Source of the DNA: Scolanthus callimorphus
Taxonomy: Eukaryota; Cnidaria; Anthozoa; Actiniaria; Edwardsiidae
Direction of reading: 5' to 3'
DNA length: 64,000 nt
NCBI GenBank assembly: GCA_033964015.1
Contig: CM066924.1
Location: 434,001-498,000, forward strand
Numbering within the stretch: the first letter of the stretch is position 1; every line of letters starts with the position of its first letter. Below the pieces are notes generated by a model. That model saw only the letters and a program-made list of their open reading frames with translations. It ran no database searches and was not told the origin of the DNA. Both the position numbers and the translations under genes were made by a program. This document shows positions 12,083 through 60,200 of the stretch, piece by piece.

Positions 12083-15000
12083 TTAGCCACAGGTGATCAC
12101 TCTCTCCTTGATGATTATTTTAAAAGGCTTCGGGACGTACGTAATACCACTATGACCAACCAAGGAAGGGAGGGGATCCTGGGGAGATTTTGTCAACTCA
12201 AACTGGTGGAGAATCCGGGCGAAGATCAAGAACAACTCGGTCTTTGCCAACGACTGACCGGGACAGCCTCTCCTTCCTGCGCTAAAAGGCAAATAACTTC
12301 TTTCTCCTGCGCCTGTGAACTTTCCTTCTTCAGTCAGGAATCTTTCAGGTTTAAACTCATGGGGATTTTCCCAGTCGTCCGTGTTGTGATGTATTGACCA
12401 GAGATTGATAATGAATGTGGTGTCCTGTGGTATGTCGTAACCAGCGAGCTTGGTATCACATGTTGACTTGTGAGGGACGCATAGAGGCGCCAAGGTCATA
12501 AAGCGCTGAGCTTCTGCGATTGTTGCTTCAAGATAAGGCATAGCGTGTCTGTCTTTCAACTCTGGCAGTCGAGCTGAGCCTATCTTCTCGTCTAGTTCTT
12601 TGTGGATTCTGGCCTGTACCTGTGGGTAGTTAACCATGAGGGCCAATAACCATAGGATCGAGTTAGTAGTGGTGTCATATCCCGCGCCAAACACGTCATT
12701 CATTGTCATCATTAGATTATCTTCGCTTAACACATCGCATTTCATATCCTTCCGCGCCTTCAGCAGCGCGTCCGTCAAATCCGTTACGTGGAAATCACCG
12801 CCAGCGCTCTCGATCTCGAATTTTTCCTTGTGGGCTTGGTACTCGCGGTTAACAATCTCATCTCGTTTCTCCATCGCGTAGTGAAGATGTCTTATGCCCT
12901 TATAAGGGATGAATCGTAGCCATGGAAATAACTCCAACATACTGAGGCCTTCAAGTGACTGGGAGAATATATCCTGTTAAGAATATTCAAAAGGAGGTAA
13001 GAGCACCTGAGGAATAAATCCATGAGTTGGGGGTCTGTCTGTCTGTCTACACCAACCACAGAGCGACACATGTAACCTGGTACAGCACTGTACCACTGTA
13101 CCACAGAGCCACACATGTAACCTGGTACAGGACCTCACACACGACACATGGGTGTAGTAACACACTGTACCACAGAGCCACACATGTGACCTGGTACAGG
13201 ACCTCACACAGGACACATGGTTGTACTAACACACTGTACCACAGAGCCACACATGTAACCTGGTACAGGACCTCACAAACGACACATTGGTGCACTAATA
13301 CACTGTACCACAGAGCCACACATGTAACCTGGTACAGGACCTCACACACGACACATGGGTGCACTAATACACTGTACCACAGAGTCACACATGTGACCTG
13401 GTACAGGACCTCACACAGGACACATGGTTGTACTAACACACTGTACCACAGAGCCACACATGTAACCTGGTACAGGACCTCACAAACGACACATTGGTGT
13501 ACTAATACACTGTACCACAGAGCCACACATGTAACCTGGTACAGGACCTCACACACGACACATGGGTGCACTAATACACTGTACCACAGAGTCACACATG
13601 TAACCTGGTACAGGACCTCACACACGACACATTGGTGTACTACACACTGTACCACAGAGCCACACATGTAACCTGGTACAGGACCTCACACACGACACAT
13701 GGGTGTACTAACACACTGTACCACAGAGCCACACATGCAACCTGGTACAGGACCTCACACACGACACATGGGTGTACTAATACACTGTACCACAGAGTCA
13801 CACATGTAACCTGGTACAGGACCTCACACACGACACATGGGTGTACTAACACACTGTACCACAGAGTCACACATGTAACCTGGTACAGGACCTCACACAC
13901 GACACATGGTTGTACTAACACACTGCACCACAGAGCCACACATGTAACCTGGTACAGGACCTCACACACGACACATGGGTGTACTAATACACTGTACCAC
14001 AGAGTCACACATGTAACCTGGTACAGGACCTCACAAACGACACATGGGTGTACTAACACACTGCACCACAGAGCCACACATGTAACCTGGTACAGGACCT
14101 CACACACGACACATGGGTGTTCTAACACACTGTACCACAGAGCCACACATGTAACCTGGTACAGGACCTCACAAACGACACATGGGTGTACTAACACACT
14201 GTACCACAGAGCCACACATGTAACCTGGTACAGGACCTCACACACGACACATTGGTGGACTAACACACTGTACCACAGAGCCACACATGTAACCTGGTAC
14301 AGGACCTCACACACGACACATTGGTGCACTAATACACTGTACCACAGAGTCACACATGTAACCTTGGTACAGGACCTCACAAACGACACATGGGTGTACT
14401 AACACACTGCACCACAGAGCCACACATGTAACCTGGTACAGGACCTCACACACGACACATGGGTGTACTACACACTGTACCACAGAGCCACACATATAAC
14501 CTGGTACAGGACCTCACACACGACACATGGGTGTACTACACACTGTACCACAGAGCCACACATGTAACCTGGTACAGGACCTCACACACGACACATGGGT
14601 GTACTACACACTGTACCACAGAGCCACACATGTAACCTGGTACAGCACTTCACACACGACACATGGGTGTACTACACACTGTACCACAGAGCCACACATA
14701 TAACCTGGTACAGGACCTCCCACACGACACATGGGTGTACTACACACTGTACCACAGAGCCACACATGTAACCTGGTACAGGACCTCACACACGACACAT
14801 GGGTGTACTAACACACTGTACCACAGAGCCACACATGTAACCTGGTACAGGACCTCACACACGACACATGGGTGTACTACACACTGTACCACAGAGCCAC
14901 ACATGTAACCTGGTACAGGACCTCACACACGACACATGGGTGTACTAACACACTGCACCACAGAGCCACACATATAACCTGGTACAGGACCTCACACACG

Positions 15001-17063
15001 ACACATGGGTGTACTACACACTGTACCACAGAGCCACACATGTAACCTGGTACAGGATCTCACACACGACACATGGGTGCACTACACACTGTACCACAGA
15101 GCCACACATGTAACCTGGTACAGGCCCTCACACACGACACATGGGTGTACTACACACTGTGTCACAGAACCACACATGTAACCTGGTACAGGACCTCACA
15201 CACGACACATGGGTGTACTAACACACTGTACCACAGAGCCACACATGTATCCTGGTACAGGACCTCACACACGACACATGGATGTACTAGCACACTGTAC
15301 CACAGAGCCACACATGTAACCTGGTACAGGACCTCACACACGACACATGGGTGTTCTAACACACTGTACCACAGAGCCACACATGTAACCTGGTACAGGA
15401 CCTCACACACGACACATGGGTGTTCTAACACACTGACCACAGAGACACACATGTAACCTGGTACAGGACCTCCAGTTAGGTAACATGGTACAGTACCTCC
15501 AATTCCACAATACTCTTGAATTCCTGATCGTTGACGTCATATCTCTTTCCATACACAGTTGAACATATGATGTTCAGGACTGCTACTGCTACGTCATACT
15601 TAGGGTCCACAGGGTGACCATCGCGGGCAAAAATCGTCTTGCGAGATCGTCGATTTCGAAAGTTATTTATCTGTGTGAGGAAAGAGTGAGTTTTACACAA
15701 ATCCCTTCTACCAGTAGATTTGAGCTATATTATGTGACACTAATCGATGAATAGATGTCGTTTTGCAGAAAACCTGCATTTTGCGAGATATTTCAGCCCC
15801 GAATTCCGTTTGATTTTTCTCAGCCCGTATCCCGATAACAAATAAAGAAAAATCCCGCATTCCGCCGAAACATGCCATGTGGATCCTCTATAAACATCGC
15901 TATTACCTTCCAAATGATTCCGCTCCTCGCCGTACAACTTCAAGGCAGAATGGATTATTCTCCGCAGACGTATCATTGTTGGGTTGAAGTCAGCCCATAC
16001 TAAGTTTGCATTACGAAAGATATAATTAGCAACAAACGAGTTCGGTCTTCCCGAGAACTCGTCCTTCCTTGTGAGTAGCGCTTCACGGGCAAGGTCCGCT
16101 AGAAAGAGAAGATACATGAGATAAGATAGCCTGCTCACGGGTAGATGGGGTTTTTATCGCGAGATCGCGGTCGCCATCTTCATCCCGCCCCCAACCTATA
16201 CTCCATCCCCTCTTCCAATTTCCATCCCTTCCTCCTCTTCCCCTCCTCCTCTGTCTTCTCCCCGCCCCACCTTCCACCACCTCCTCTTCTCCCCTCCCTC
16301 TTCGATTTATCTCCTCGCCCCTAGTACCTAAACCCAATGCAGGTGTCGAACCCGGGCCACAGCGGTGAGAGGCAAGCGCTAATGCCCCGAGACCCTATCG
16401 CTACGCCAACCATGCGAAAATTAACAGTCCTAGTGTGACAAATCACTCCTGGTAACTAGATGGTAATGCTTACTGATAGACCAAATCGGCTAACGGTGTT
16501 TACATGTTGTTGCCACCCAATTCAGATCATGTGATGATTCGCTTGGGTGGTTGCAATTGTTTATACAACAACACTAGTAAATCGCGCGCTCTGATTGGTC
16601 GAGAGCCATGTTGCTATAAGAGTACAGATACATGGTTGACAAAAATCCCTGTTTCTTACACACGACCGAGTGCATGTTCAGTATGTATAAGATGAACAAT
16701 TGTGTCTAGTGGCAACAAGATGTAAACACCTTTAGTCGATCTAGCTTATTGTGTCACAAGACATCAACGCAAAAAAACACGTCATCAAACGGGGACCTCA
16801 ATTCACAAACCTGTGTTAATGACGATACACCACTGACCACCAGGTAGCGTCAAGCTGTATATTTTCCCATACTCCTTTGCGAGCTTGTCCATGTCGAGGT
16901 GCCTCATAGAGCCAAGCAGACTCGGTAAGTTGCCAATAATCGGGTACGGTCTGGGGCCAGGAGGCAGGTTTAGACTCTTTGTCTTCCAAGCGTTAGCCAA
17001 CCAATTCTTCGCCAAGAAGACAGTAATGATTAAAAGAGCTGTTAGTGCGAGCTCCAGAAACAT
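12083..17063 (-). CDS. Cytochrome P450 gene A (clan 2-like), four exons; exon 3 carries two frameshifts
   Basis: Predicted ER-membrane heme monooxygenase; substrate unknown. Exons, 5' to 3' on the minus strand: 17063-16811, 16098-15907, 15670-15497 and 12973-12083 (stop TAA). Exon 1 encodes an N-terminal anchor followed by the hinge LPPGPRPYPIIGN. Exon 4 holds the I-helix motif GAGYDTT, the K-helix EAQR (ExxR), FKPERF and the heme loop PFSAGRRGCPG with the cysteine ligand. Exon sizes match gene B (253 and 192 bp) except exon 3, which is 174 bp against 176. Aligned with gene B, exon 3 lacks one base just after its acceptor and another about 45 bases on; read as spliced, it meets TAA in the third codon. 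The rest is well conserved, so this is either a young pseudogene or an assembly error. A TATA box lies at 17257-17264. Subfamily not assigned. Confidence 0.85.
13060..15478. repeat. 69-bp minisatellite filling intron 3 of P450 gene A (about 35 units)
   Basis: The unit reads GTAACCTGGTACAGGACCTC, then ACACACGACACATGGGTGTA, and so on through ACCACAGAGCCACACAT. Most units are 69 bp; some are 68 bp because one A of CTAACACAC is missing. Since 69 is 23 codons, long 23-residue-periodic open frames appear on both strands. The array starts about 20 bp inside the exon 3 donor and ends about 85 bp from the exon 4 acceptor, so it makes up nearly all of intron 3. The same unit fills intron 3 of gene B. 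Confidence 0.97.
16140..16411 (-). mobile_element. tRNA-derived SINE in intron 1 of P450 gene A
   Basis: Read on the minus strand, 16411-16339 is a tRNA-like head: an A-box-like GGCGTAGCGATAGGG, then GCCTCTCACCGCTGTGGCC and a B box GGTTCGACACC that fits GGTTCGANNCC. A purine-rich body follows to about 16140. A second copy lies at 20590-20871 and a related head at 62250-62335. The element lies next to the pyrimidine tract and acceptor of exon 2. Confidence 0.75.
16480..16757. repeat. Foldback element R2 in intron 1
   Basis: Inverted ends: CCAAATCGGCTAACGGTGTT at the left, with its degraded complement ending near AGCTTATTG at the right. Inside are TTGTTGCCACCCAATTC and GTGGCAACAAGATG. It contains a GCGCGCTCTGATTGGTCG motif near 16590. 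The counterpart in the duplicated copy is split by an insertion. Confidence 0.65.
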
Positions 17064-17256
17064 ATTCAGTTAATGCTCTCTGCAAAAAAGTATGAAAAAT
17101 AACTTCATAAAAAGTGCCGACTTGACCTTTCCAATAATGCACCGTATTGTTTTTTATTGTTTCGCGTTATCGATTAGTCGATTTGTAACACCCCCACCCC
17201 CCGGGGTCCTTGTGTCGGTCACACAACGCCTCCCTCGGAATGATGGCTGCTAGCGC

Positions 17257-17264
17257 TTTATATA
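17257..17264 (-). promoter_or_regulatory. TATA box of P450 gene A
   Basis: Read on the minus strand this is TATATAAA, about 195 nt upstream of the ATG at 17063. The same box sits at the same spacing in the duplicated copy (about 22981-22988). The sequence downstream of the box resembles half of the foldback element in gene B intron 1. Confidence 0.5.
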
Positions 17265-18287
17265 GGTGACTAAATTTCCAAGTTGGTCCGCATAGAGAGA
17301 GAAAAAAGCACAAGCTTTGACTGAACGGTGTTGTGGGCATTTTAATTTGAGTACCGTAGAAAAAAAAATTTGCTCAAAAAAGCGCATACTATCTAGTTCG
17401 ATTATTCGACAATTTAACTTTGTTGAAGCTAAAATGGTACACTATAACATAATTATCTGTCTGTTCCACCACTTGAATCGCCATTTCTCCTTCCACTTAA
17501 TCGAATTTGACTAACTTCATTGCAAACATCGTAGTTAATTTGATTTTAAGTAGTATTTTTCACCCCCAAAAATGAACTTGAGCAGAAGTTACAAGGACAT
17601 ACAAGTTGTGTGCAAATATTTCTTTCTGCTATATATAGTTTGTTTGATCGCGTTCCTGGTATTCTAAGGACGAAAAAAAAGTACCCGGAGGTGGCCGGGT
17701 AACTACTGCTTAAAAGAGAAACAGGCAGGCGAAACTACCTTCCAATCAAAACCGCTATAAAAAATGACTATAAAGATGACTTACTTTTGATTCACTTGCA
17801 ATGCAGCGGCAAAATGGAGCACAGCGGATCTCAATGCGAGGACCGAAGCGTTGAATGCGAATTTGAGTGAAGGTCACGTTGATCGAATTACTAGTTGGTA
17901 AGGTGGCTCGGGACAGTCTTTAATAATAACAAATAATAAATAGTTTATTAATCCTATTCGTAGGACAAAAAGCCCAAATTGCCAGGTCGACTTCGGTAGC
18001 TGTTCTGTACTCATACAAGGGGCGTCCATACTAATGTTCTGGTGGCCGGGCGTCCCTCTCCGTGCACCACTGGATCACTGAATCACTTCCGTTCAAAAAT
18101 TCCCAAGAATAGCGACTGTCAGGGCCGAAATCTATAGCGTGTCTTAAGCACCGTACGGCCGCCATACGATGCTTCACATCTCGCGGGGAGATTTCTGGAT
18201 GTATGGACCTGTTTTGTTTTTCTTGTTTTGTTTTGCTGATTTTTCGTTTCTTCTTAAAATGTATACATGTAGATAGCAACCTCAATC

Positions 18288-18507
18288 ATCCTCGTACCCT
18301 GCCAGAGCTCCCCGCCTCGTCTTCTCGCGCGGGAGGCACTGGTTCGAGGTTCTTCGCTGATGATTGGTGATTTTGAACGTTGGGGCATGCGCAGAAAGCT
18401 TTTTTTTTTTCAATTGCTCTGTATCAAATCTCGCTCATGCGTCAATGGCTGTCACAAGAGCCCGACCGCAAGGTGACGAGCCGGGGGAGCTCTGGGTTCG
18501 AGAATGG
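18288..18507. repeat. MITE family R3 (GAGCTC ends), copy in duplication 1
   Basis: Ends are inverted around CCAGAGCTCCCC and GGGGGAGCTCTGG; the interior holds GCTGATTGG, GCATGCGC and TGTCAC. A rearranged reverse copy lies at about 18519-18945. The duplicated equivalents are at about 24010-24240 and 24250-24680. Confidence 0.8.
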
Positions 18508-19634
18508 TCATTCAAGTACTGAGATCTCCCCGAACCCAGAGCTCTCTGCTGACCGTCGTTTGGCCGATTTTCAGCGTTGGGCGTCCACTCAGCGGCTCGC
18601 GCATGCGCCTGTGGCTGTCACAAGAGACTCCGAGGAGAACATTGTCGAACTCAGAGCTCCCTTGTTCGTCACCTGGCAGGGAAGAGCCGTCGAGTTAAAC
18701 ACCTTTCTGCACATGCCCAACGTTAAAAATCAGCCAATCAGCGAAGGCACTTTTAAGTTTAAAAATTTAAAATGGTAGCCTTAGTATCAGGCGGAACTTT
18801 ATATTTCCGTGAGAAACATTTTTTCGAGAGGGGGGAAGGTCCTGATAAAAAAGTAAAGTAAACAATAAATACTCAGGCTACTCAAATGGATGTCCCCAGA
18901 GCCTTCCCTGCGAGCAGACGAGCTGGGGAGCTCTGGGCACAAGAATGCGAGGAGACGAGCGGTGAGGTGTTCGTACCAGAATGATACTGACGATACTGAT
19001 GACTGATCGTTAATTCCTTGTGTTACCTTTGGTAACACGATCTGCAAACGGGTGTCCACCTTTTGTCCCAGTATTATAAACCGTGCTTCTATGCTCGTTT
19101 ACAGCTGCACAATTCAGTATACCCAATGTAAGTGATTATCGATTATAACACTAAGCAGCTAAGGGCAGTGATAATAATAATAATATTTATTAACCTTATA
19201 TCACATTAAGATACATCGGTATTTATAATACATTTTACAGATCACCATCTAATTTATGGAACTCTACTTTCCTGGACTGTAGCAAGCGATGTGTTAGAAT
19301 AGGCGAGTTTTGGTCCTATTCATTGTTCCGACCTGTCATTCAAAGCCGCAATAGTTACTGTTTCATACAGTAACCAGGGTTTTCTTAAAAAAAGTCCAAA
19401 AATATTCCGATCCCGCTTATAGGTTTACCAGTGAGATATCTCTATCTTCTGATCATCTCAGTATATACTGTCTTAAAAGGCAATAAAAGTGTTGCAAATA
19501 GAACTGATTTCGGAAGTCCTGAAATACTACAGTCCCCGTGGGAGAATCTTTCCAACTCCGATTGGTATTTCCAGAAAGCGTGAAATGGCTTCTGTGTTTC
19601 ACCGGAAATGAATAACGGGCCTTGTGTTCCATAA

Positions 19635-22470: not shown

Positions 22471-22534
22471 TTGTGTCACAAGACATCAACGCAAAAAAAA
22501 ACTCGTTAACAAACAGGGGCCTCAATTCACAAAC

Positions 22535-22787
22535 CTGTGTTAACGACGACACACCGCTGACCACCAGGTAGCGTCAAGCTGTATATGTTCCCATACTCCT
22601 TTGCGAGCTTGTCCATGTCGAGGTGCCTCATAGAGCCAAGCAGACTCGGCAAGTTGCCAATAATCGGGTAGGGTCTGGGGCCAGGAGGCAGGTTTAGACT
22701 CTTTGTCTTCCAAGCGTTAGCCAACCAATTCTTCGCCAAGAAGACAGTAATGATTAAAAGAGCTGTTAGTGCGAGCTCCAGAAACAT
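22535..22787 (-). pseudogene. Duplicated P450 exon 1 (orphan or alternative first exon)
   Basis: Encodes the same start as gene A: anchor LALTALLIITVFLA, hinge LPPGPRPYPIIGN and an end at GGQRCVVVNT. The reading frame is open, and the donor (ACAG|GTTTGT) and the upstream TATA box are kept. It differs from gene A at a few sites (GGQRC instead of GGQWC, matching gene B here). No exons 2-4 follow before gene A. Its phase-1 donor could splice to gene A exon 2 at 16098, giving an alternative first exon; otherwise it is a truncated copy. Confidence 0.85.
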
Positions 22788-24009
22788 ATTCAGTTAAATG
22801 CTCTCTGCAAAAAAGTATGAAAAATAACTTCATAAAAAGTGCCGACTTGACCTTTCCAATAATGCACCGTATTGTTTTTTATTGTTTCGCGTTATCGATT
22901 AGTCGATTTGTAACACCCCACCCCCCGGGGTCCTTGTGTCGGTCACACAACGCCTCCCTCGGAATGATGGCTGCTAGCGCTTTATATAGGTGACTAAATT
23001 TCCAAGTTGGTCCGCATAGAGAGAGAAAAAAGCAAAAGCTTTGACTGAACGGTGTTGTGGGCATTTTAATTTGAGTACCGTAGAAAAAAAAATTTGCTCA
23101 AAAAAGCGCATACTATCTAGTTCGATTATTCGACAATTTAACTTTGTTGAAGCTAAAATGGTACACTATAACATAATTATCTGTCTGTTCCACCACTTGA
23201 ATCGCCATTTCTCCTTCCACTTAATCGAATTTGACTAACTTCATTGCAAACATCGTAGTTAATTTGATTTTAAGTAGTTTTTTTCACCCCCAAAATGAAC
23301 TTGAGCAGAAGTTACAAGGACATACAAGTTGTGTGCAAATATTTCTTTCTGCTATATATAGTTTGTTTGATCGCGTTCCTGGTATTCTAAGGACGAAAAA
23401 AAAGTACCCGGAGGTGGCCGGGTAACTACTGCTTAAAAGAGAAACAGGCAGGCGAAACTACCTTCCAATCAAAACCGCTATAAAAAATGACTATAAAGAT
23501 GACTTACTTTTGATTCACTTGCAATGCAGCGGCAAAATGGAGCACAGCGGATCTCAATGCGAGGACCGAAGCGTTGAATGCGAATTTGAGTGAAGGTCAC
23601 GTTGATCGAATTACTAGTTGGTAAGGTGGCTCGGGACAGTCTTTAATAATAACAAATAATAAATAGTTTATTAATCCTATTCGTAGGACAAAAAGCCCAA
23701 ATTGCCAGGTCGACTTCGGTAGCTGTTCTGTACTCATACAAGGGGCGTCCATACTAATGTTCTGGTGGCCGGGCGTTCCCTCTCCGTGCACCACTGGATC
23801 GCTGAATCACTTCCGTTCAAAAATTCCCAAGAATAGCGACTGTCAGGGCCGAAATCTATAGCGTGTCGTAAGCACCGTACGGTCGCCATACGATGCTTCA
23901 CATCCCGCGGGGAGATTTCTGGATGTATGGACCTGTTTTGTTTTTCTTGTTTTGTTTTGTTGATTTTTCGTTTCTTCTTAAAATGTACATGTAGATAGCA
24001 AGATAACCT

Positions 24010-24680
24010 CAATCATCCTCGTACCCTGCCAGAGCTCCCCGCCTCGTCTTCTAGAGTTGGAGGCACTGGTTCGAGGTTCTTCGCTGATGATTGGTGATTT
24101 TGAACGTTGGAGCATGCGCAGAAAGCTTTTTTTTTTTTTCAATTGCTCTGTATCAAATCTCGCTCATGCGTCAATGGCTGTCACAAGAGCCCGACCGCAA
24201 GGTGACTAGCCGGGGGAGCTCTGGGTTCGAGAATGGTCATTCAAGTACTGAGATCTCCCCGAACCCAGAGCTCTCAGGTGACCGTCATTTGGCCGATTTT
24301 CAGCGTTGGGCGTCCACTCAGCGGCTCGCGCATGCGCCTGTGGCTGTCACAAGAGACTCCGAGGAGAACATTGTCGAACTCAGAGCTCCCTTGTTCGTCA
24401 CCTGGCAGGGAAGAGCCGTCGAGTTAAACACCTTTCTGCACATGCCCAACGTTAAAAATCAGCCAATCAGCGAAGGCACTTTTAAGTTTAAAAAATTTAA
24501 AATGGTAACCTTAGTATCAGGCGGAATTTTATATTTCCGTGAGAAACATTTTTTTCCGAGAGGGGGGAAGGTCCTGATAAAAAAAGTAAAGTAAACAATA
24601 AATACTCAGGCTACTCAAATGGATGTCCCCAGAGCCTCCCCTGCGAGCAGACGAGCTGGGGAGCTCTGGGCACAAGAATG
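24010..24680. repeat. MITE family R3, copies in duplication 2
   Basis: Counterpart of 18288-18945, with the same GAGCTC-type ends, GCATGCGC core and reversed partner. Small differences show divergence after duplication. Confidence 0.75.
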
Positions 24681-26631: not shown

Positions 26632-29600
26632 ATGTTTCTGGAGCTCTCGTTGACAGCTCTCTTAATCATTACTGTCTACTTGGGGACAAATTGGTTGTCT
26701 AACGCTTGGAAGACAAAGAGTCTAAACCTGCCTCCTGGCCCCAGACCCTACCCGATTATTGGCAACTTGCCGAGTCTGCTTGGTTCTGCGAGACACCTTG
26801 ACATGGACAAGCTCGCAAAGGAGTATGGGGAAATATACAGCTTGACGCTACCTGGAGGTCAGCGGTGTGTCGTCATTAACACAGGTTTGTGAAGTGCATA
26901 AAGCGGTCTTCGCAGGAATATCGAATGTGAATTAGACTTACGTTTTACGCTTGGTTTTCATAAGTGCGAAGGAAAAACAAAAACACAGAGACTCTTGTCT
27001 GCTTTAGGGGCTCATAAATAGGGGCGTCCCTCTCTAGTATTGGTAAGGCATTTTGACAGACCTAGCTATTTTTAGACTTCTAGTCTCCCTCGCAGCCCGT
27101 TCTTTGTGTCGGTCACGCAACGCTTCCCTCCCCACGAACGGCTGCTTACATTCGAACCACATTTCTTTCCCTTTGTTCTGAATGACCCAAGACGAAGTAG
27201 GCACTTTCGAGACATTTCCAAGGCAACCAGACAAAACAGAAATGTGGTTCGTATGTGAGCAACCGTTCGTGGGTAGGGGAGCGTTATGAGACCGACACAA
27301 AGAACGGGCAGCATGGGTGACAAGAATTCTTCGGGTCACGTGACTTAGTTCTGTTCTGTCGGTGAATGGTTTTGTTTACAATTGGCTAAGTGTATTAGTC
27401 TGTACTGTACATGTTTAATTAACTACACCAATTTTAAGAAATACCTTTCATTCTTTATTCTAGCGGATCTGGCCCGTGAAGCGCTACTGACAAGGAAGGA
27501 CGAACTTTCGGGAAGACCGTACATGTTTGTTGCTAGTTACATCAATCGCAATGCTAGTTTGATTTCTATTGATTTCAACCCTACATTGTTACGCCTACGA
27601 AAGATAATCCACTCTGCGTTGAGGATATATGGCGAGAGGCGTCAACACCTGGAAGGTAAGGCTGCGTTTAACACTCGAACTAGGAGACGTAAGCTCTATT
27701 TACGCGACCACGACAGAAATATTTGGACTCGGATAAAAAAGGTTCATGGACTACCTCGCCACGTAGTCCCGGCTCTGACATACTGTAGTACGAGACAAAG
27801 TTATTTACACAGCCCAAATATGGCCGAGCTGTGCCATTAAATTGGTAACCGTACCACTTTTTATCCGAGCCGTGCCAAAAAATCCATGTCGTGTAAATGG
27901 GCCTTTAGTGTTACACTAGCTGTAACAGTTAGAGCATTCAGTTTCAGATGAAAATGGTGAAGGGTGATGGGAGGGGCTTGTTGATGGCATGTAGTTTTAT
28001 TGTAATGAGAGATGTCGAAAGATGATTGTGGTGATGACGTGATGATGACGAGGGAGAGAAGGAGGTGGAAAACGAGGACGAGGACGAGAGGAAAGTAAAA
28101 GAAGGGAAGGGAAAGAATAGTGCGTGGAAGAGGAGAGAGTGGAAGATGAAGATGAGGAAGAGAAGGAGAAGGGAAGAGAAAGAGGAGTGTGTGGAAGAGG
28201 AGGAAAAGAAAGAGAAAAAAAGGAGCGGAATAGGAGAAAGTGGAAGTTGAAGATGAGGAAGAGGAGGAGGAAGAGGAAATAAACGGAAGAATAAGAGAAA
28301 GAAAAGGAGGTGGAAGATGAAGAAGAGAAAAAGGAGGAAGAGTGGGAAGATGAAGAAGATGGAGAAGAGAGGGAAGAGGGGGAAGAGAGGAAGGAAGGGA
28401 CAAGAGTGCATTTCATTACACCATCTTACGCTTTCTTGCCACAGATAAAATAACCTATGAGACCGATGATCTCGCCCGACGATTTCTCGCGCATAATGGC
28501 AATCCTGTGGACCCAAAATATGACGTAGCAGTAGCGGTCCTGAATATCATATGTTCAGTTGTGTATGGAAAGAGATATGACGTCAACGACCAGGAATTTA
28601 AGAGTATTGTGGAATTTCAGGTAACGATGTTATTATTATGAATATAGATCCACTATGTGTGAGGCAAAAGGTATTGGTATGCGGAAGTCATGGTGTATCA
28701 GTGAGTATGTTGTATGTTCGTTTGTGCCGTGTGTGAGGTCCTGTACGAGATTACATTTCTGGCTCTCCGGTGTAGTGTGTAAGTCCATCCCTGTGTCATG
28801 TGTGAGGTCCTGTACCAGGTTACATGTGTGGCTCTGTGGTACAGTGTGTTAGTACACCCATGTGTCATGTGTGAGGCCCTGTACCAGGTTACATGTGTGG
28901 CTCTGTGGTACAGTGTGTCAGTACACCCATGTGTCATGTGTGAGGCCCTGTACCAGGTTACATGTGTGGCTCTGTGGTACAGTGTGTTAGTACACCCATG
29001 TGTCGTGTGTGAGGTCCTGTACCAGGATACATGTGTGGCTCTGTGGTACAGTGTGTTAGTACACCCATGTGTCATGTGTGAGGTCCTGTACCAGGTTACA
29101 TGTGTGGCTCTGTGGTACAGTGTGTAGTACACCCATGTGTCGTGTGTGAGGTCCTGTACCAGGTGACATATGTGGCTCTGTGGTACAGTGTGTTGGTACA
29201 CCCATGTGTCGTGTGTGAGGTCCTGTACCAGGTTACATATGTGGCTCTGTGGTACAGTGTGTCAGTACACCCATGTGTCATGTGTGAGGTCCTGTACCAG
29301 GTTACATGTGTGGCTCTGTGGTACAGTGTGTTAGTCCACCAATGTGTCGTGTGTGAGGTCCTGTACCAGGTTACATGTGTGGCTCTGTGGTACAGTGTGT
29401 TAGTCCCACCATGTGTCGTGTGTGAGGTTCTGTATCAGGTTACATGTGTGGCTGTGGTACAGTGTGTTAGTACACCCATGTGTCATGTGTGAGGCCCTGT
29501 ACCAAGGTTACATGTGTGGCTCTGTGGTACAGTGTGTTAGTACACCCATGTGTCGTGTGTGAGGTCCTGTACCAGGTTACATGTGTGGCTCTGTGGTACA

Positions 29601-32600
29601 GTGTGTTAGTACACCCATGTGTCGTGTGTGAGGTCCTGTACCAGGATACATGTGTGGCTCTGTGGTACAGTGTGTTAGTACACCCATGTGTCATGTGTGA
29701 GGTCCTGTACCAGGTTACATGTGTGGCTCTGTGGTACAGTGTGTAGTACACCCATGTGTCGTGTGTGAGGTCCTGTACCAGGTGACATATGTGGCTCTGT
29801 GGTACAGTGTGTTGGTACACCCATGTGTCGTGTGTGAGGTCCTGTACCAGGTTACATATGTGGCTCTGTGGTACAGTGTGTCAGTACACCCATGTGTCAT
29901 GTGTGAGGTCCTGTACCAGGTTACATGTGTGGCTCTGTGGTACAGTGTGTTAGTCCACCAATGTGTCGTGTGTGAGGTCCTGTACCAGGTTACATGTGTG
30001 GCTCTGTGGTACAGTGTGTTAGTCCCACCATGTGTCGTGTGTGAGGTTCTGTATCAGGTTACATGTGTGGCTGTGGTACAGTGTGTTAGTACACCCATGT
30101 GTCATGTGTGAGGTCCTGTACCAAGGTTACATGTGTGGCTCTGTGGTACAGTGTGTTAGTACACCCATGTGTCGTGTGTGAGGTCCTGTACCAGGTTACA
30201 TGTGTGGCCCTGTGGTACAGTGTATTAGTACACCCATGTGTCGTGTGTGAGGTCCTGTACCAGGTTACATGTGTGGCTCTGTGGTACAGTGTGTTAGTAC
30301 AACCATGTGTCGTGTGTGAGGTCCTGTACCAGGTTACATGTGTGGCTCTGTGGTACAGTGTGTTAGTACACCCATGTGTCGTGTGTGAGGTCCTGTACCA
30401 GGTTACATGTGTGGCTCTGTGGTACAGTGTGTCAGTACACCCATGTGTCGTGTGTGAGGTCCTGTACCAGGTTACATGTGTGGCTCTGTGGTACAGTGTG
30501 TTAGTACACCCATGTGTTGTGTGTAAGGTCCTGTACCAGGTTACATGTGTTGCTCTGTGAACAGTGTGTAGTGCACCCATGTGTCGTGTGTGAGGTCCTG
30601 TACCAGGTGATATGTGTGGCTCTGCGGTGTAGTGTGTAGTTCACCCATGTGTCGTGTGTGAGGTCCTGTACCAGGTTACATGTGTGGCTCTGTGGTACAG
30701 TGTGTTAGTACACCCATGTGTCGTGTGTGAGGTCCTGTAGCAGGTTACATGTGTTGCTCTGTGTTACAGTGTGTTAGTACACCCATGTGTTGTGTGTAAG
30801 GTCCTGTACCAGGTTACATGTGTTGCTCTGTGAACAGTGTGTAGTGCACCCATGTGTCGTGTGTGAGGTCCTGTACCAGGTGATATGTGTGGCTCTGCGG
30901 TGTAGTGTGTAGTTCACCCATGTGTCGTGTGTGAGGTCCTGTACCAGGTTACATGTGTGGCTCTGTGGTACAGTGTGTTAGTACACCCATGTGTCGTGTG
31001 TGAGGTCCTGTAGCAGGTTACATGTGTTGCTCTGTGTTACAGTGTGTTAGTACAACCATGTGTCGTGTGTGAGGTCCTGTACCAGGTTACATGTGTGGCT
31101 CTGTGGTACAGTGTGTTAGTTCACCCATGTGTCGTGTGTGAGGTCCTGTACCAGGTTACATGTGTGGCTCTGTGGTACAGTGTGTCAGTTCACCCATGTG
31201 TCGTGTGTGAGATCCTGTACCAGGTTACATGTGTGGCTCTGTGGTACAGTGTGTTAGTACACCCATGTGTCGTGTGTGAGGTCATGTACCAGGTTACATG
31301 TGTGGCTCTGTGGTACAGTGTGTTAGTACACCCATGTGTCGTGTGTGAGGTCCTGTACCAGGTGATATGTGTGGCTCTGCGGTGTAGTGTGTAGTTCACC
31401 CATGTGTCGTGTGTGAGATCCTGTTCCAGGTTACATGTGTGGCTCTGTGGTACAGTGTGTAGTACACCCATGTGTCGTGTGTGAGGTCCTGTACCAGGTT
31501 ATATACATGTGAGGCTCTGTGGTACAGTGTGTTAGTACACCCATGTGTCGTGTGTGAGGTCCTGTACCAGGTTATATGTGTCTCTTTGTGCTTCACTTCG
31601 TTAGTACATCCATGTTACGTGTGTGAAATACAGGTTTGAGGGTTTCAACATAAAAAAGTGTCACCGAAGTCACGACAGTTGGACAAATAAATGTCGAGAA
31701 AGCTTCAACCTGATCCCTCCAGCTTCCGGCTGTTTCTATTAAGTACTCTTACTTTTGTTTAATCTTCCCTAAACAGGAAATATTGTCAGCGGCATTCGGA
31801 AGCCTCAGCATGTTGGAGTTGATTCCATGGCTACGATTCATCCCATATAAGAGCATAAGACGACTTCACTACGCGCGGGACTCGAGGGATGAGATCATTA
31901 ACCGCGAGTACCAAGCCCACAAGGAAAAATTCGAGATCGAGAGCGCTGGCGCTGATTTCCACGTAACCGATTTGACAGACGCGCTGCTGAAGGCTTTGAG
32001 TGAGGATGTGGAATGCGAGGAGCTGTTAAGCGAAGATCATGTGATGATGACGATGAATGACGTGTTTGCCGCGGGATATGACACCACCACTTTCTCGATC
32101 CTATGGTTATTGGCCCTCATGGTTAACTATCCACAAGTACAGGCCAGAATCCATAAAGAACTAGACGAGAAAATAGGCTCAGCTGGACTGCCAGAGTTGA
32201 AAGACAGACACGCTATGCCTTATCTTGAAGCAACAATCGCAGAAGCTCAGCGCTTTAAGACCCTGCTGCCTCTATCCATTCCTCACAAGTCAACATGCGA
32301 TACCAAGCTCGCGGGTTACGACATACCACAGGACACCACATTCATTATCAATCTATGGTCAATACATCACAACACGGACGACTGGGAAAATCCCCATGAG
32401 TTTAAACCTGAGAGATTCTTGAATGAAGAAGGAAAGTTCACAGGCGCAGGAGAAAGAAGTTATTTGCCTTTTAGCGCAGGAAGGAGAGGCTGTCCCGGTC
32501 AGTCGTTGGCGAAGACCGAGTTGTTCTTGATCTTCTCCCGGGTTCTCCACCAATTTAAGTTGACAAAATCTCCCGAGGACCCCCTCCCTTCCTTGGCTGG

Positions 32601-32691
32601 CCATACTGGTATTTCGTACCACCCAATATCTTTCAAAATGGTTTTTAAGGAGAGGACATTCAAAGACAAGGAGTTTTCGCTTCGTGAATAA
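26632..32691 (+). CDS. Cytochrome P450 gene B (clan 2-like), four exons, intact
   Basis: Predicted ER-anchored heme monooxygenase of 511 residues. Exons: 26632-26884, 27464-27655, 28445-28620 and 31777-32691; phases 1, 1 and 0 join cleanly and all introns are GT-AG. Residues 1-20 form the membrane anchor; the proline hinge PPGPRP is at 34-39; the I-helix AAGYDTT is at about 305-311; ExxR (EAQR) at 363-366; PERF at 418-421; the heme loop PFSAGRRGCPG has its cysteine at about 446. Every hallmark of an active P450 is present. It is divergent from gene A and about 80-90% identical in exon 4 by eye. The overall pattern recalls animal CYP1/17/21-type (clan 2) enzymes; substrate and subfamily cannot be told from sequence alone. 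Confidence 0.93.
27074..27320. repeat. Foldback element in intron 1 of P450 gene B
   Basis: Inverted ends of about 80 bp: the left has CCCGTTCTTTGTGTCGGTCA and CCCACGAACGGCTGC; the right is their complement (GCAACCGTTCGTGGG, GACCGACACAAAGAACGGG). One arm resembles the segment next to the gene A TATA box (17200-17255). Confidence 0.8.
28030..28400 (+). repeat. Polypurine tract in intron 2 of P450 gene B
   Basis: About 370 bp of nearly pure G/A on the plus strand (GAGGAAGAG, AGAAGGAGAAGG and similar). The Ser/Leu/Phe-rich open frames on the minus strand here are by-products of this composition. Such tracts can form triplex DNA. Confidence 0.85.
28735..31600. repeat. 69-bp minisatellite in intron 3 of P450 gene B (about 41 units)
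   Basis: Unit GAGGTCCTGTACCAGGTTAC, then ATGTGTGGCTCTGTGGTACA and so on: the reverse complement of the 13.1-15.5 kb unit, hence the same sense relative to each P450. It shows higher-order structure: a block near 28998-29490 recurs 619 bp downstream, and a four-unit block near 30500 recurs 273 bp downstream. Most units are 69 bp, giving open 23-codon periods on both strands. Confidence 0.97.
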
Positions 32692-33112
32692 GATAACTTT
32701 AAAATGCTATAGAATGATAGAGCTAAAATCGTTTTTTTAAAGGTATTTCCATATAAGATGGAGAGCAAATTTCACATTTGTCTTACAACTGGTGGAACTG
32801 TAGATTAAGAGGAAGATGTGACAGAAGTAAAGGTAAAGGAGAAGGAAGAGAAAGCGGAAGAGTAAGTGCAAGAGGAGGAGGGATGGAAGGGAGGTGCAGG
32901 AGGAATAGAAGCGAAAGAAAACGTGGAAGAGGAGGTCATACACACATCGGCATCAGTCAGGCCCAGACGGAACGCTAGCAGTTCAATTTGGTATAACTCC
33001 GATTCCGATTTTGTATAACTCAGGGCTCCTGTGTTGATAACAGGCAGCTTTTTAAGCTTCTGATTGACTACCCTAAGTTCTGATATTAAATAAAGGTTTC
33101 TATCTAATCTTT
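32692..33112. other. Spacer downstream of P450 gene B
   Basis: A second, shorter purine-rich stretch lies at 32805-32935. The part from about 32985 to 33112 is probably 3' flank of the hammerhead-bearing element (read on the minus strand). No gene seen. Confidence 0.4.
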
Positions 33113-33167
33113 GGTAGCCATGGACAGCTGTTTCGTCCTTGTTAGGACTCATCAGCATGGCATAGCC
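33113..33167 (-). ncRNA. Type I hammerhead ribozyme, short stem III
   Basis: On the minus strand every core element is present in order. Stem I 5' strand GGCTATGCCATG (33167-33156); CTGATGA (33155-33149); stem II GTCC / loop TAACAA / GGAC (33148-33135); GAAA (33134-33131); stem III and cleavage triplet CAGCTGTC (33130-33123); stem I 3' strand CATGGCTACC (33122-33113). GCCATG pairs with CATGGC next to the core. The triplet is GUC, so cleavage is expected between 33123 and 33122. Stem III is minimal (A-U, C-G, A-U with a two-base loop), but ACAGCTGT is self-complementary, the pattern of metazoan retrozyme and Penelope-type hammerheads that act as dimers. All conserved core bases are intact. Activity is inferred. 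Confidence 0.9.
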
Positions 33168-33530
33168 GGTGTTTGCCTCAGTAAACTTCATTGGCAAAAC
33201 AACTACAGAGGCGACTTCGAAAATCGAAGTGCTTTAACCACACGGAAAAGACCCATGTGGGACTTATAGCTACGACTGGGCTAGCGTGATGCCAATGTGT
33301 GGATCACGCACAGGAGACCAAGCTAGAGGAGTCCGTCGGGCGTTCTCTGACCGTTAGGTCCATCTCTAAAACAATCTGTCTTTATAATGTAATTTGTAGT
33401 TTGTTGTGATTCGAGTCGCTATAGCAATCGTTAACCACGGCCCTAGCTTGTTTATAATTAGCAGTCTTCAGACGCGTTGCTTGATCTATTTTTCATTTAA
33501 ATGACACCCCTTGCACAATCCATCAGCAAT

Positions 33531-58314: not shown

Positions 58315-60200
58315 TAAACACCAATGAAATACCAGGTGATCTCCCGCGCGAAAACTTGATATCTTCACACGTGAAAATATCATGTTATTTTCACATGCGA
58401 AAATATCACACTTGCCTTTGCTGAATGCTCGATTTTTAAGCTTAACTCAAATAAAATTTGAATTTGGTATTTCATTGATGTTTATATAATAAACAGAACA
58501 TTACATGACCGTTTGGAGATACGAATTTTATCTTCTCGTGTTAAAAATTTATCTCACTCGTTCGCTGCGCTCACTCGTGAGATAAATTTTCAACACTCGA
58601 AGATAAAATTCGTATCCCCGCGCGGCCATGTAATATCCTCTATTTATTATATAGCTCGTGTTTATTCGATCAAAGCGCGCGCTCTGATTGGTTCTATCAT
58701 GGTCACGTGGCGGGCTACAAATTCAATGTAGCCCGCGCGGGCTACAATTAAAAAATTGTTGCCCGCGCGGGCGACATCGCTAGAGCGAGAAGTTTCGGCG
58801 GAATATTTTTACCCATGTTTACCGTATTTTCTTTTTGCTATATAATAAAACACTTAATGACTACACCCTCGGGAAACAGCGAGTTTTGTTTTCCCTCGAA
58901 TCTCGATGTTTCCCTCGACTTCGTCTCGGGAAACATCGAGATTCTCGGGAAAACAAAACTCGCTGTTTCCCTCGGAAGCAGTCATTAAGTGTATATTATT
59001 ATAACACCAATGAAATACCAGGTGATCTCCCGCGTGAAAACTTGATATCTTCACACGTGAAAATTATACACTTAATGACTGCTCCCGAGGGAAACATCAG
59101 TTTTGTTTCCCGAGAATCTCGGTTGGCCGAGTGAGCACTCGCTATATAACAAATCATGTTGTTATATAGCGAGTGCTCACTCCAACCGAGCGCGCGCTCG
59201 TATTGGCTAAGTCATGGTCACGTGGTGAAGTACAAATCAAATATTCCCCGATCAGTCAATATTTCGAAAAATTATTGACTGGTCGGGGAATATTGCTTTC
59301 GCGCGTCGCGTTTGAGAGCGGGAAAAAAGAGAAAGTTTATTGTAAACACGCGAGTCTTTTTAAAAACTTTTGCTAATTTTGATAAGTTTTTGCTAATGCA
59401 AGAAAATTGTGTTGTTTATGAGTGTTTTCCCTTTACATGATGCAGTCGCGCACAAACTTTGTAACTTCTCTTTTCATTCTTGAAATACATTTGTTTTGAC
59501 TTAATAATTGCAGTATATTTTCTGCTATATAACAAAACACTTAATGACTACTCCCTCGGGAAACACCAGTTTTGTTTCCCTCGAATCTCGATGTTTCCCT
59601 CGACTTCGTCTCGGGAAACATCGAGATTCTCGGGAAACAAAACTGATGTTTCCCTCGGGAGCAGTCATTAAGTGTATATTATTTTCACATGTGAAAATAT
59701 CACACTTGCCTTTGCTGGATGCTCGATTTTTAAGCTTAACTCAAATAAAATTTGAATTTGGTATTTCATTGATGTTTATATACCGTTTCCGGGAAACGTT
59801 GTCACCCAAAAAGCCTATAAGCTTGAAGCGCAAAGGATGATGGGGGCATTTAAACTGCTACTGTTTGATCTGAATTCAGACAGTTATCGCAACCACAGGT
59901 GAAATGATTAAATTTCAGCACATTTCCAAGCATGTTTGTTTCTAATATTTTACAGAAATTTAAATAAATCTTTACCCATACTCCCTAGCGCACCAAGCTT
60001 ATAGGCTTTTTGGGTGACAACGTATCCGGAAAGGGTATATAATAAACAGAACATTACATGACCGCTTGGAGATACGAATTTTATCTTCTCGTGTTAAAAA
60101 CTTATCTCACTCGTTCGCTGCGCTCACTCGTGAGATAAATTTTCAACACTCGAAGATAAAATTCGTATCTCCGCGCGGCCATGTAATATCCTCTATTTCT
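58315..60200. repeat. Nested foldback-element cluster (R4, R7, R8)
   Basis: 58315-58640 is an R4 composite like 36504-36830. 58850-58995 and 59529-59675 are R7 foldbacks (ACACTTAATGACT ends, GGGAAACATCGAGATTC arms). 58650-58850 and 59160-59530 share TATATAGC ends, GCGCGCGCTC, ATTGG and CATGGTCACGTGG. A second R4 composite (58995-60200) is interrupted by R7 and by R8 (59781-60037). Confidence 0.85.
59781..60037. repeat. MITE R8 with TA target-site duplication
   Basis: Starts TACCGTTTCCGG and ends CCGGAAAGGGTA. Inverted arms run through GTTGTCACCCAAAAAGCC and TATAAGCTTG. It interrupts R4 at GATGTTTATA|TAATAAAC; the uninterrupted site exists at 36671-36689 and near 58480, so a 2-bp TA duplication is directly visible. 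This is consistent with a Tc1/mariner-type mobiliser. Confidence 0.92.

Follow-up and report, generated by a model that had tools for sequence, protein, structure and literature searches.

A hammerhead retrozyme family in Scolanthus callimorphus inserted head-to-head in the manner of Penelope-like elements

A hammerhead motif beside a P450 gene

The window analysed here is a 64,000-nt stretch of Scolanthus callimorphus contig CM066924.1 (assembly GCA_033964015.1, positions 434,001 to 498,000), and it carries a hammerhead motif on the minus strand and a cytochrome P450 coding frame on the plus strand (Table 1). A reading made from the letters alone (hereafter, the sequence-only reading) had placed the motif beside a P450 gene, and the protein family match of the frame confirmed this neighbour. 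The named homologues among 120 of its 207 matches include proteins of sea anemones, a stony coral, and vertebrates such as fishes; Nematostella supplied the closest of them, at 55% identity. The frame forms an inverted duplication with a P450-like frame at 12083-12940 (minus strand), and 69-bp tandem arrays (13094-15472 and 28723-31626) adjoin one frame each. Elsewhere in the window, two copies of a direct repeat (16771-18699 and 22495-24428) lie 5.7 kb apart with 96-100% identity in the stretches listed, and a strong palindrome at 59549-59663, probably a MITE, matched a microRNA model on both strands below the gathering score. No tRNA genes were found in the 64 kb.

Table 1 Features of the retrozyme locus in the window.
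Feature	Position	Strand	Basis
Cytochrome P450 coding frame, outside the element	31783..32691	+	PF00067, E 4.9e-80; ORF list
Retrozyme copy continued, unit positions 247-289	32938..32980	-	blastn, 93%
123-bp insert in retrozyme copy	32987..33109	.	sequence; 7-bp direct repeats TACCAAA at both bounds
Retrozyme copy, unit positions 1-227, holds hammerhead	33110..33339	-	blastn to L036 unit, 91.7%
Type I hammerhead motif	33117..33161	-	RF00163, 41.2 bits, E 4.7e-7
Predicted cleavage site after GUC (C17 at 33123)	33122..33123	-	position in hammerhead model, inferred
Self-complementary stem III ACAGCTGT, dimer-type	33124..33131	-	sequence; two-strand folds

The motif had been called a complete type I hammerhead, and the Infernal run against Rfam bears this out: the match to RF00163 (Hammerhead_1) lies above the gathering score (41.2 against 34 bits) and spans 45 of 45 model positions, with no non-standard pair marked by cmscan. 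The core elements CUGAUGA and GAAA and the GUC triplet are all in place as claimed, and the predicted cleavage site agrees with the one proposed earlier. Stem I has 6 bp, stem II has 4 bp, and stem III is the palindrome ACAGCUGU.

All three stems had also been said to pair. As a two-strand (dimeric) structure they do; in a single strand, stem III shrinks to 2 bp closed by a 4-nt loop. The 63-nt region folded better than all 200 dinucleotide shuffles (z -4.0), but the most favourable fold of one strand differs from the hammerhead, with part of the CUGA core paired to the CAG of stem III. The proposed dimer-style nature of stem III held in the energy model for a young copy of the family (L036), whose lowest-energy two-strand fold is predicted to be the dimeric hammerhead (-52.1 kcal/mol against 2 x -23.4 for the single strands), and did not hold for the window copy, whose dimeric hammerhead core is calculated at -36.9 against -45.8 for the best two-strand fold. 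The predicted fold of the young copy has CGGC/GCCG outside a UAU/U internal loop of stem I.

The window copy of the retrozyme

We consider it likely, jointly with the mechanism proposed below, that the motif belongs to a metazoan (non-LTR) retrozyme, of which the window holds one copy, old and defective. Aligned by blastn to the 344-nt unit of the young copy, the window copy extends from 33339 to 32938 on the minus strand with about 92% identity; it lacks the final ~25 nt of the usual unit 3' end and gives way to CT-rich sequence. It is interrupted directly beyond stem I by the 123-bp insert, whose flanking repeats lie at 33116-33110 and 32993-32987, and which is absent from all other copies compared except one (L009). 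That copy, at 531 kb on C14, lies in a segmental duplicate of the P450 locus (97.7% identity over 1,674 bp), and the retrozyme parts of the two are identical across the 272 nt compared. Flank comparison gave no convincing target duplication for the window copy, which looks like a relic, seemingly dead.

The sequence-only reading had weighed a lone copy left as the solo unit of a circular-RNA-type retroelement against a new host element. The copy is alone within the window and has many relatives genome-wide, and it appears from sequence comparison to be a degraded single member of a dispersed family with tandem oligomers elsewhere, much as the first option had it. The host-element option found no support: at this site the copy is common only to its own segmental duplicate, and it carries an insertion.

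The 344-nt family in the genome

In the genome searched (597 Mb, 302 contigs), 121 nt around the motif gave at least 44 matches (40 of 327 candidates scored) and the whole young unit at least 96 (40 of 514 candidates scored), both being lower bounds biased to the best, that is, young copies. Identity to the young unit was 98-100% in 85 of the 96 scored matches. The genome-wide search for tandem copies that had been recommended did recover arrays, with a period of 344 nt that gives the unit length and with about four units in one arm of L014. The 96 whole-unit matches fell into 41 clusters, 21 of them tandem on one strand, 12 head-to-head (several of which also hold tandem units), 8 single, and none tail-to-tail. 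The units abut directly in arrays, without coding sequence between them.

Within the unit, the hammerhead begins near position 176 and the predicted cut falls after position 214. The GC content of the young unit is 47.1%, and one circular unit folded at -124.9 with 68% of its positions paired (-91.4 +/- 6.4 in 20 mononucleotide shuffles). We assign the repeat to the metazoan retrozymes, an already described kind of element. Among the 59 pieces of at least 96% identity that were counted (15 of 74 were left out), each differed from the majority letter at 0-6 positions. Private variants were shared within an array at just two loci (L037, L041) and were seen in none of the other arrays, which lends weak support to one template per array.

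Cleavage triplets of hammerheads follow the NUH rule, with which GUA and GUC both comply. Of 50 intact family motif places read, 42 have GUA and 8 have GUC; six older loci have GUC in four (window/L010, L012, L013, L025) and GUA in two (L032, L035). The RF00163 gathering score was reached by the window copy, L012, L013, L025, and one unit of L014, and not by the GUA-carrying L023, L035, and L036, so that among the young loci L014, L023, and L036 just that one unit passes. Since young copies mostly carry GUA and just one unit of these three loci reached the gathering score, covariance-model censuses will undercount the family.

The RF00163 search of the genome itself gave at least 70 matches, 68 of them above the cut-off (74 of 84,363 candidates scored), and the same search of 14 control genomes gave none. 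All 30 loci extracted from it belong to another hammerhead family (..ACACCGTGCTGAAGAGACCC..; L045-L074), which also has stem III ACAGCTGT. One of its loci (L065) holds two motifs 269 bp apart, and one copy holds a Penelope-like insertion (L075).

Ends, orientation and target duplications of the insertions

The 3' ends of the retrozyme copies are nearly fixed. Of 50 piece ends within unit positions 295-335, 45 fall at 306-320, and the common ends (311-318) lie 97-104 nt downstream of the predicted ribozyme cut; a few pieces stop at other positions, such as 240, 183, or 175. The copies run out in ..GTTCATTCTCACTT, beyond which the sequence is unrelated and often AT-rich, and no common poly(A) or simple-repeat tail was present among the junctions inspected. 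The 5' ends are scattered. Several apparent starts at unit position 1 are an artefact of the choice of unit, because the flank matches about 10 letters further, and none of the start positions listed for clusters lies at 213-217, the end expected of a cut linear monomer.

In each of the 12 clusters with opposed copies, the arrangement is head-to-head, with the 3' ends facing outward. Two such clusters, both on C11, share their left flank and probably represent a single insertion that was duplicated. At C3:28966191 (arms of 91 and 98-100% identity) and C8:21847019 (99-100 and 89-96%), the arms differ in identity, so these may be nested or neighbouring insertions.

Short target duplications accompany the head-to-head form. 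In a first set, 8 of 13 loci scored 8 or more (9-14 bp), compared with 0 of 156 permuted flank pairs, the failures being L020, L026, L031, L034, and L040. In a second set, from which the second, duplicate C11 locus was left out, 5 of 6 loci scored 9 or more, compared with 1 of 30 permuted pairs; the C8 locus failed, and the match by which the C190 locus passed is an A-run. At single-orientation loci, taken without the duplicate of the window locus (L009), a clear target duplication was mostly absent, just 5 of 22 scoring 8 or more (3 of 462 permuted).

A Penelope-like element and a LINE query in the same genome

The coding frame of the Penelope-like insertion L075 is intact, spans 845 aa, and matches RVT_1 (E 2.5e-8) and GIY-YIG (E 1.2e-7). 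The element is built head-to-head, with identical 1,569-bp arms, and lies in a unit of the second hammerhead family, where its insertion duplicated about 10-11 bp of target (L057/L075). The hammerhead beside its frame was considered as the element's own repeat and discarded, as the Penelope element is inserted into the second-family unit.

Its 3' end gave at least 42 genome matches (40 of 447 candidates scored), with nine head-to-head and no tail-to-tail pairs, and its protein at least 63 (54 of 3363 candidates scored), with seven head-to-head and no tail-to-tail pairs within 8 kb. The junction rule of the first retrozyme set was applied to nine pairs (L075 and the eight others with retrieved outer junctions), two of which lie in local repeats: all nine scored 9-14, compared with 0 of 72 permuted pairs at 8 or more. 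A control based on the longest shared string in whole 241-nt stretches did not discriminate (a length of 11 occurred in at least 5 of 56 permuted pairs), and the junction-restricted test was used instead. The retrozyme and the Penelope-like family of this genome thus both show head-to-head inverted copies with short target duplications. The two arms of the Penelope pairs examined end at two different sites, whereas retrozyme arms end at about one. In all nine head-to-head Penelope pairs examined (L085-L100 and L075), the long 3' tail belongs to the left arm in assembly orientation, where half would be expected.

The retrozyme tail differs from that of the Penelope family examined (..CTCCATTTACTTCA or ..TCTTATTTTAAA), no Penelope element with the 344-nt unit as its own repeat was found, and a frame with reverse transcriptase (RT) and GIY-YIG domains adjoins none of the units examined, being present in the separate element L075. 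Given the tail mismatch and no unit flanking a Penelope frame among those compared, we name no partner element. A minimal hammerhead-like motif at the Penelope 3' end had no Rfam match at E up to 10 and is therefore a reading by eye. The link to Penelope-like elements drawn in the sequence-only reading is supported by the insertion anatomy, and does not extend to the repeat being a Penelope element's own terminal repeat.

As a LINE control, the reverse transcriptase from L045 (RVT_1, E 1.6e-33) was used as the query. From 8161 candidates it gave 125 scored matches, none with an opposed partner within 8 kb, a control that is partial because a query with the RT domain misses 5'-truncated arms.

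Discussion

Retrozymes of animals, coral included, have been known since 2020; Acropora millepora has more than 6,000 type I motifs, and non-LTR retrozymes (Cervera and de la Pena 2020) occur in Acropora, Mytilus, and axolotl (PMC7229834). Like the metazoan non-LTR retrozymes, the present family has a type I hammerhead, tandem units within 150-450 bp, a GC content below 50%, and many dispersed copies (PMC7229834). A stable helix III is reported for most invertebrate retrozymes (PMC7761336), whereas the palindromic stem III here is weak, like that of the amphibian (dimer) type. The hammerhead repeats of newts and salamanders also have a short stem III that works as a dimer and a unit of about 330-350 nt (PMC7229834), but the copies seen here form small dispersed arrays and monomers in an unrelated cnidarian genome. 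What is new here is how retrozyme copies sit in a genome, with a near-fixed 3' end, a head-to-head form, and target duplications. Head-to-head insertions with target duplications do not figure in the cited sections of the retrozyme descriptions (PMC7229834, PMC7761336), and no paper among those searched uses both "retrozyme" and "head-to-head", a narrow gauge of novelty.

Animal retrozymes yield abundant small RNA circles, and the question is which enzyme returns these to DNA; Penelope-like elements are named as a strong candidate (PMC7229834, PMC7761336). They too have head-to-head copies, short target duplications, and 3' ends at an internal site past a hammerhead (PMC3846280, PMC11167929). 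They differ in that the retrozyme unit has no RT/GIY-YIG frame and one class of 3' end instead of two. In rotifers, inverted Penelope copies are mostly head-to-head with 8-10 bp duplications, and the authors prefer self-priming on an antisense template as the cause (PMC3846280). The purified protein of a lizard Penelope-like element cuts and extends both target strands, preferring AT-rich sites (PMC11167929). Its reverse transcription starts 111-118 nt into the ORF and its ribozyme cuts 26 nt into the ORF, which puts the start 85-92 nt downstream of the cut, compared with 97-104 nt for the retrozyme 3' ends; ribozyme mutants were without effect on insertion in vitro (PMC11167929). The insertion anatomy found here supports the published guess that Penelope machinery may mobilise animal retrozymes. 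Scars that match those of a Penelope-like element in the same genome, and that were unseen with the LINE query, make this guess concretely testable.

The genome sequence itself supplies the unit, the tandem arrays, the near-fixed 3' end, the head-to-head rule, the target duplications, and a young Penelope element built alike, and from these we infer RNA cleavage, circles, copying of a circle over several laps, and a Penelope protein as the agent. In the proposed mechanism, tandem retrozyme copies would be transcribed, and adjacent hammerheads in the multimer would base-pair at ACAGCUGU, adopt the dimeric fold, and cleave the transcript to unit lengths. As the monomer prefers a fold in which the catalytic core is hidden, a circle formed by ligation would be protected from cleavage. 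The two target strands would be nicked in trans, 9-14 bp apart, by a Penelope-like RT/GIY-YIG protein. Either nick could then prime reverse transcription, which would begin inside the RNA, about 97-104 nt downstream of the ribozyme cut. Synthesis would proceed toward the RNA 5' side, sometimes for more than one lap, and where both nicks prime, the two cDNAs would be joined head-to-head. Priming of one cDNA at each of two staggered nicks would also produce the head-to-head form and would account directly for the target duplications. Arms of more than one unit from the same start site (about four in L014) fit copying round a circle or along a multimer; little speaks for the circle in particular, and a multimeric linear RNA would serve equally. 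A bolder form of the scheme, extended to animal retrozymes at large, is somewhat less probable than even: in Penelope-type double-strand priming, both nicks of one staggered cut would prime at the same internal site of a retrozyme circle, each cDNA might run several laps before the head-to-head join, and the dimer-only hammerhead would be a switch that cuts multimers and spares the monomeric circle.

The head-to-head and target-duplication architecture common to both elements, together with a 3' end downstream of the hammerhead that is also typical of Penelope-like elements (PMC11167929), would also suit a unit that is the pseudo-LTR of an autonomous Penelope-like element, with the window copy as a solo pLTR. 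This is unlikely, given that the array units abut at 344 nt without coding sequence between them and that all 62 unit positions compared are at least 133 kb away from the 63 scored Penelope ORF matches (54 of 3363 candidates scored). In the window and the examined loci, tblastn with the Penelope protein found, beyond L057/L075, a single 99-aa fragment of 60% identity, about 0.5 kb from the units of L043. Mobilisation of a SINE-like retrozyme by a LINE seems to us improbable. A near-fixed 3' end, variable 5' truncation, and 9-14 bp duplications are LINE-like as well, and 15-bp duplications in Nematostella repeats were once read as those of LINE-mobilised, SINE-like repeats (PMC4918200). Against it stand the junctions inspected, which have no poly(A) or simple-repeat tail in common, and the contrast between opposed retrozyme clusters, head-to-head in 12 of 12, and the 125 scored matches of the LINE RT query, a partial control, with none.

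Inverted arms flanked by direct duplications might also be the terminal repeats of a MITE-type DNA transposon, but 29 of the 41 clusters have no inverted partner, and arm lengths, unit numbers, and inner breakpoints vary by locus while the outer ends are one and the same 3' end; the cluster counts contradict this reading, which is hardly credible. A ribozyme recruited by the host, for example to process an antisense transcript near the P450 gene, is very improbable. It could account for an intact ribozyme in so old a copy, which agrees with its counterpart in the segmental duplicate at all 272 nt compared, but other old copies (L012, L013, L025) also keep intact ribozymes, and the duplication as a whole shows 97.7% identity over 1,674 bp.

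A LINE-like segment found at 7 places in the genome was considered as an autonomous partner and set aside, the one downstream stretch read (L120) being without a hammerhead; its peptide matched no Pfam family above the cut-off, with a best PDB match at E 0.56. Retrozyme pieces are joined to this segment in L038 (414-767) and L040 (238-791), which suggests template jumps or nested insertions.
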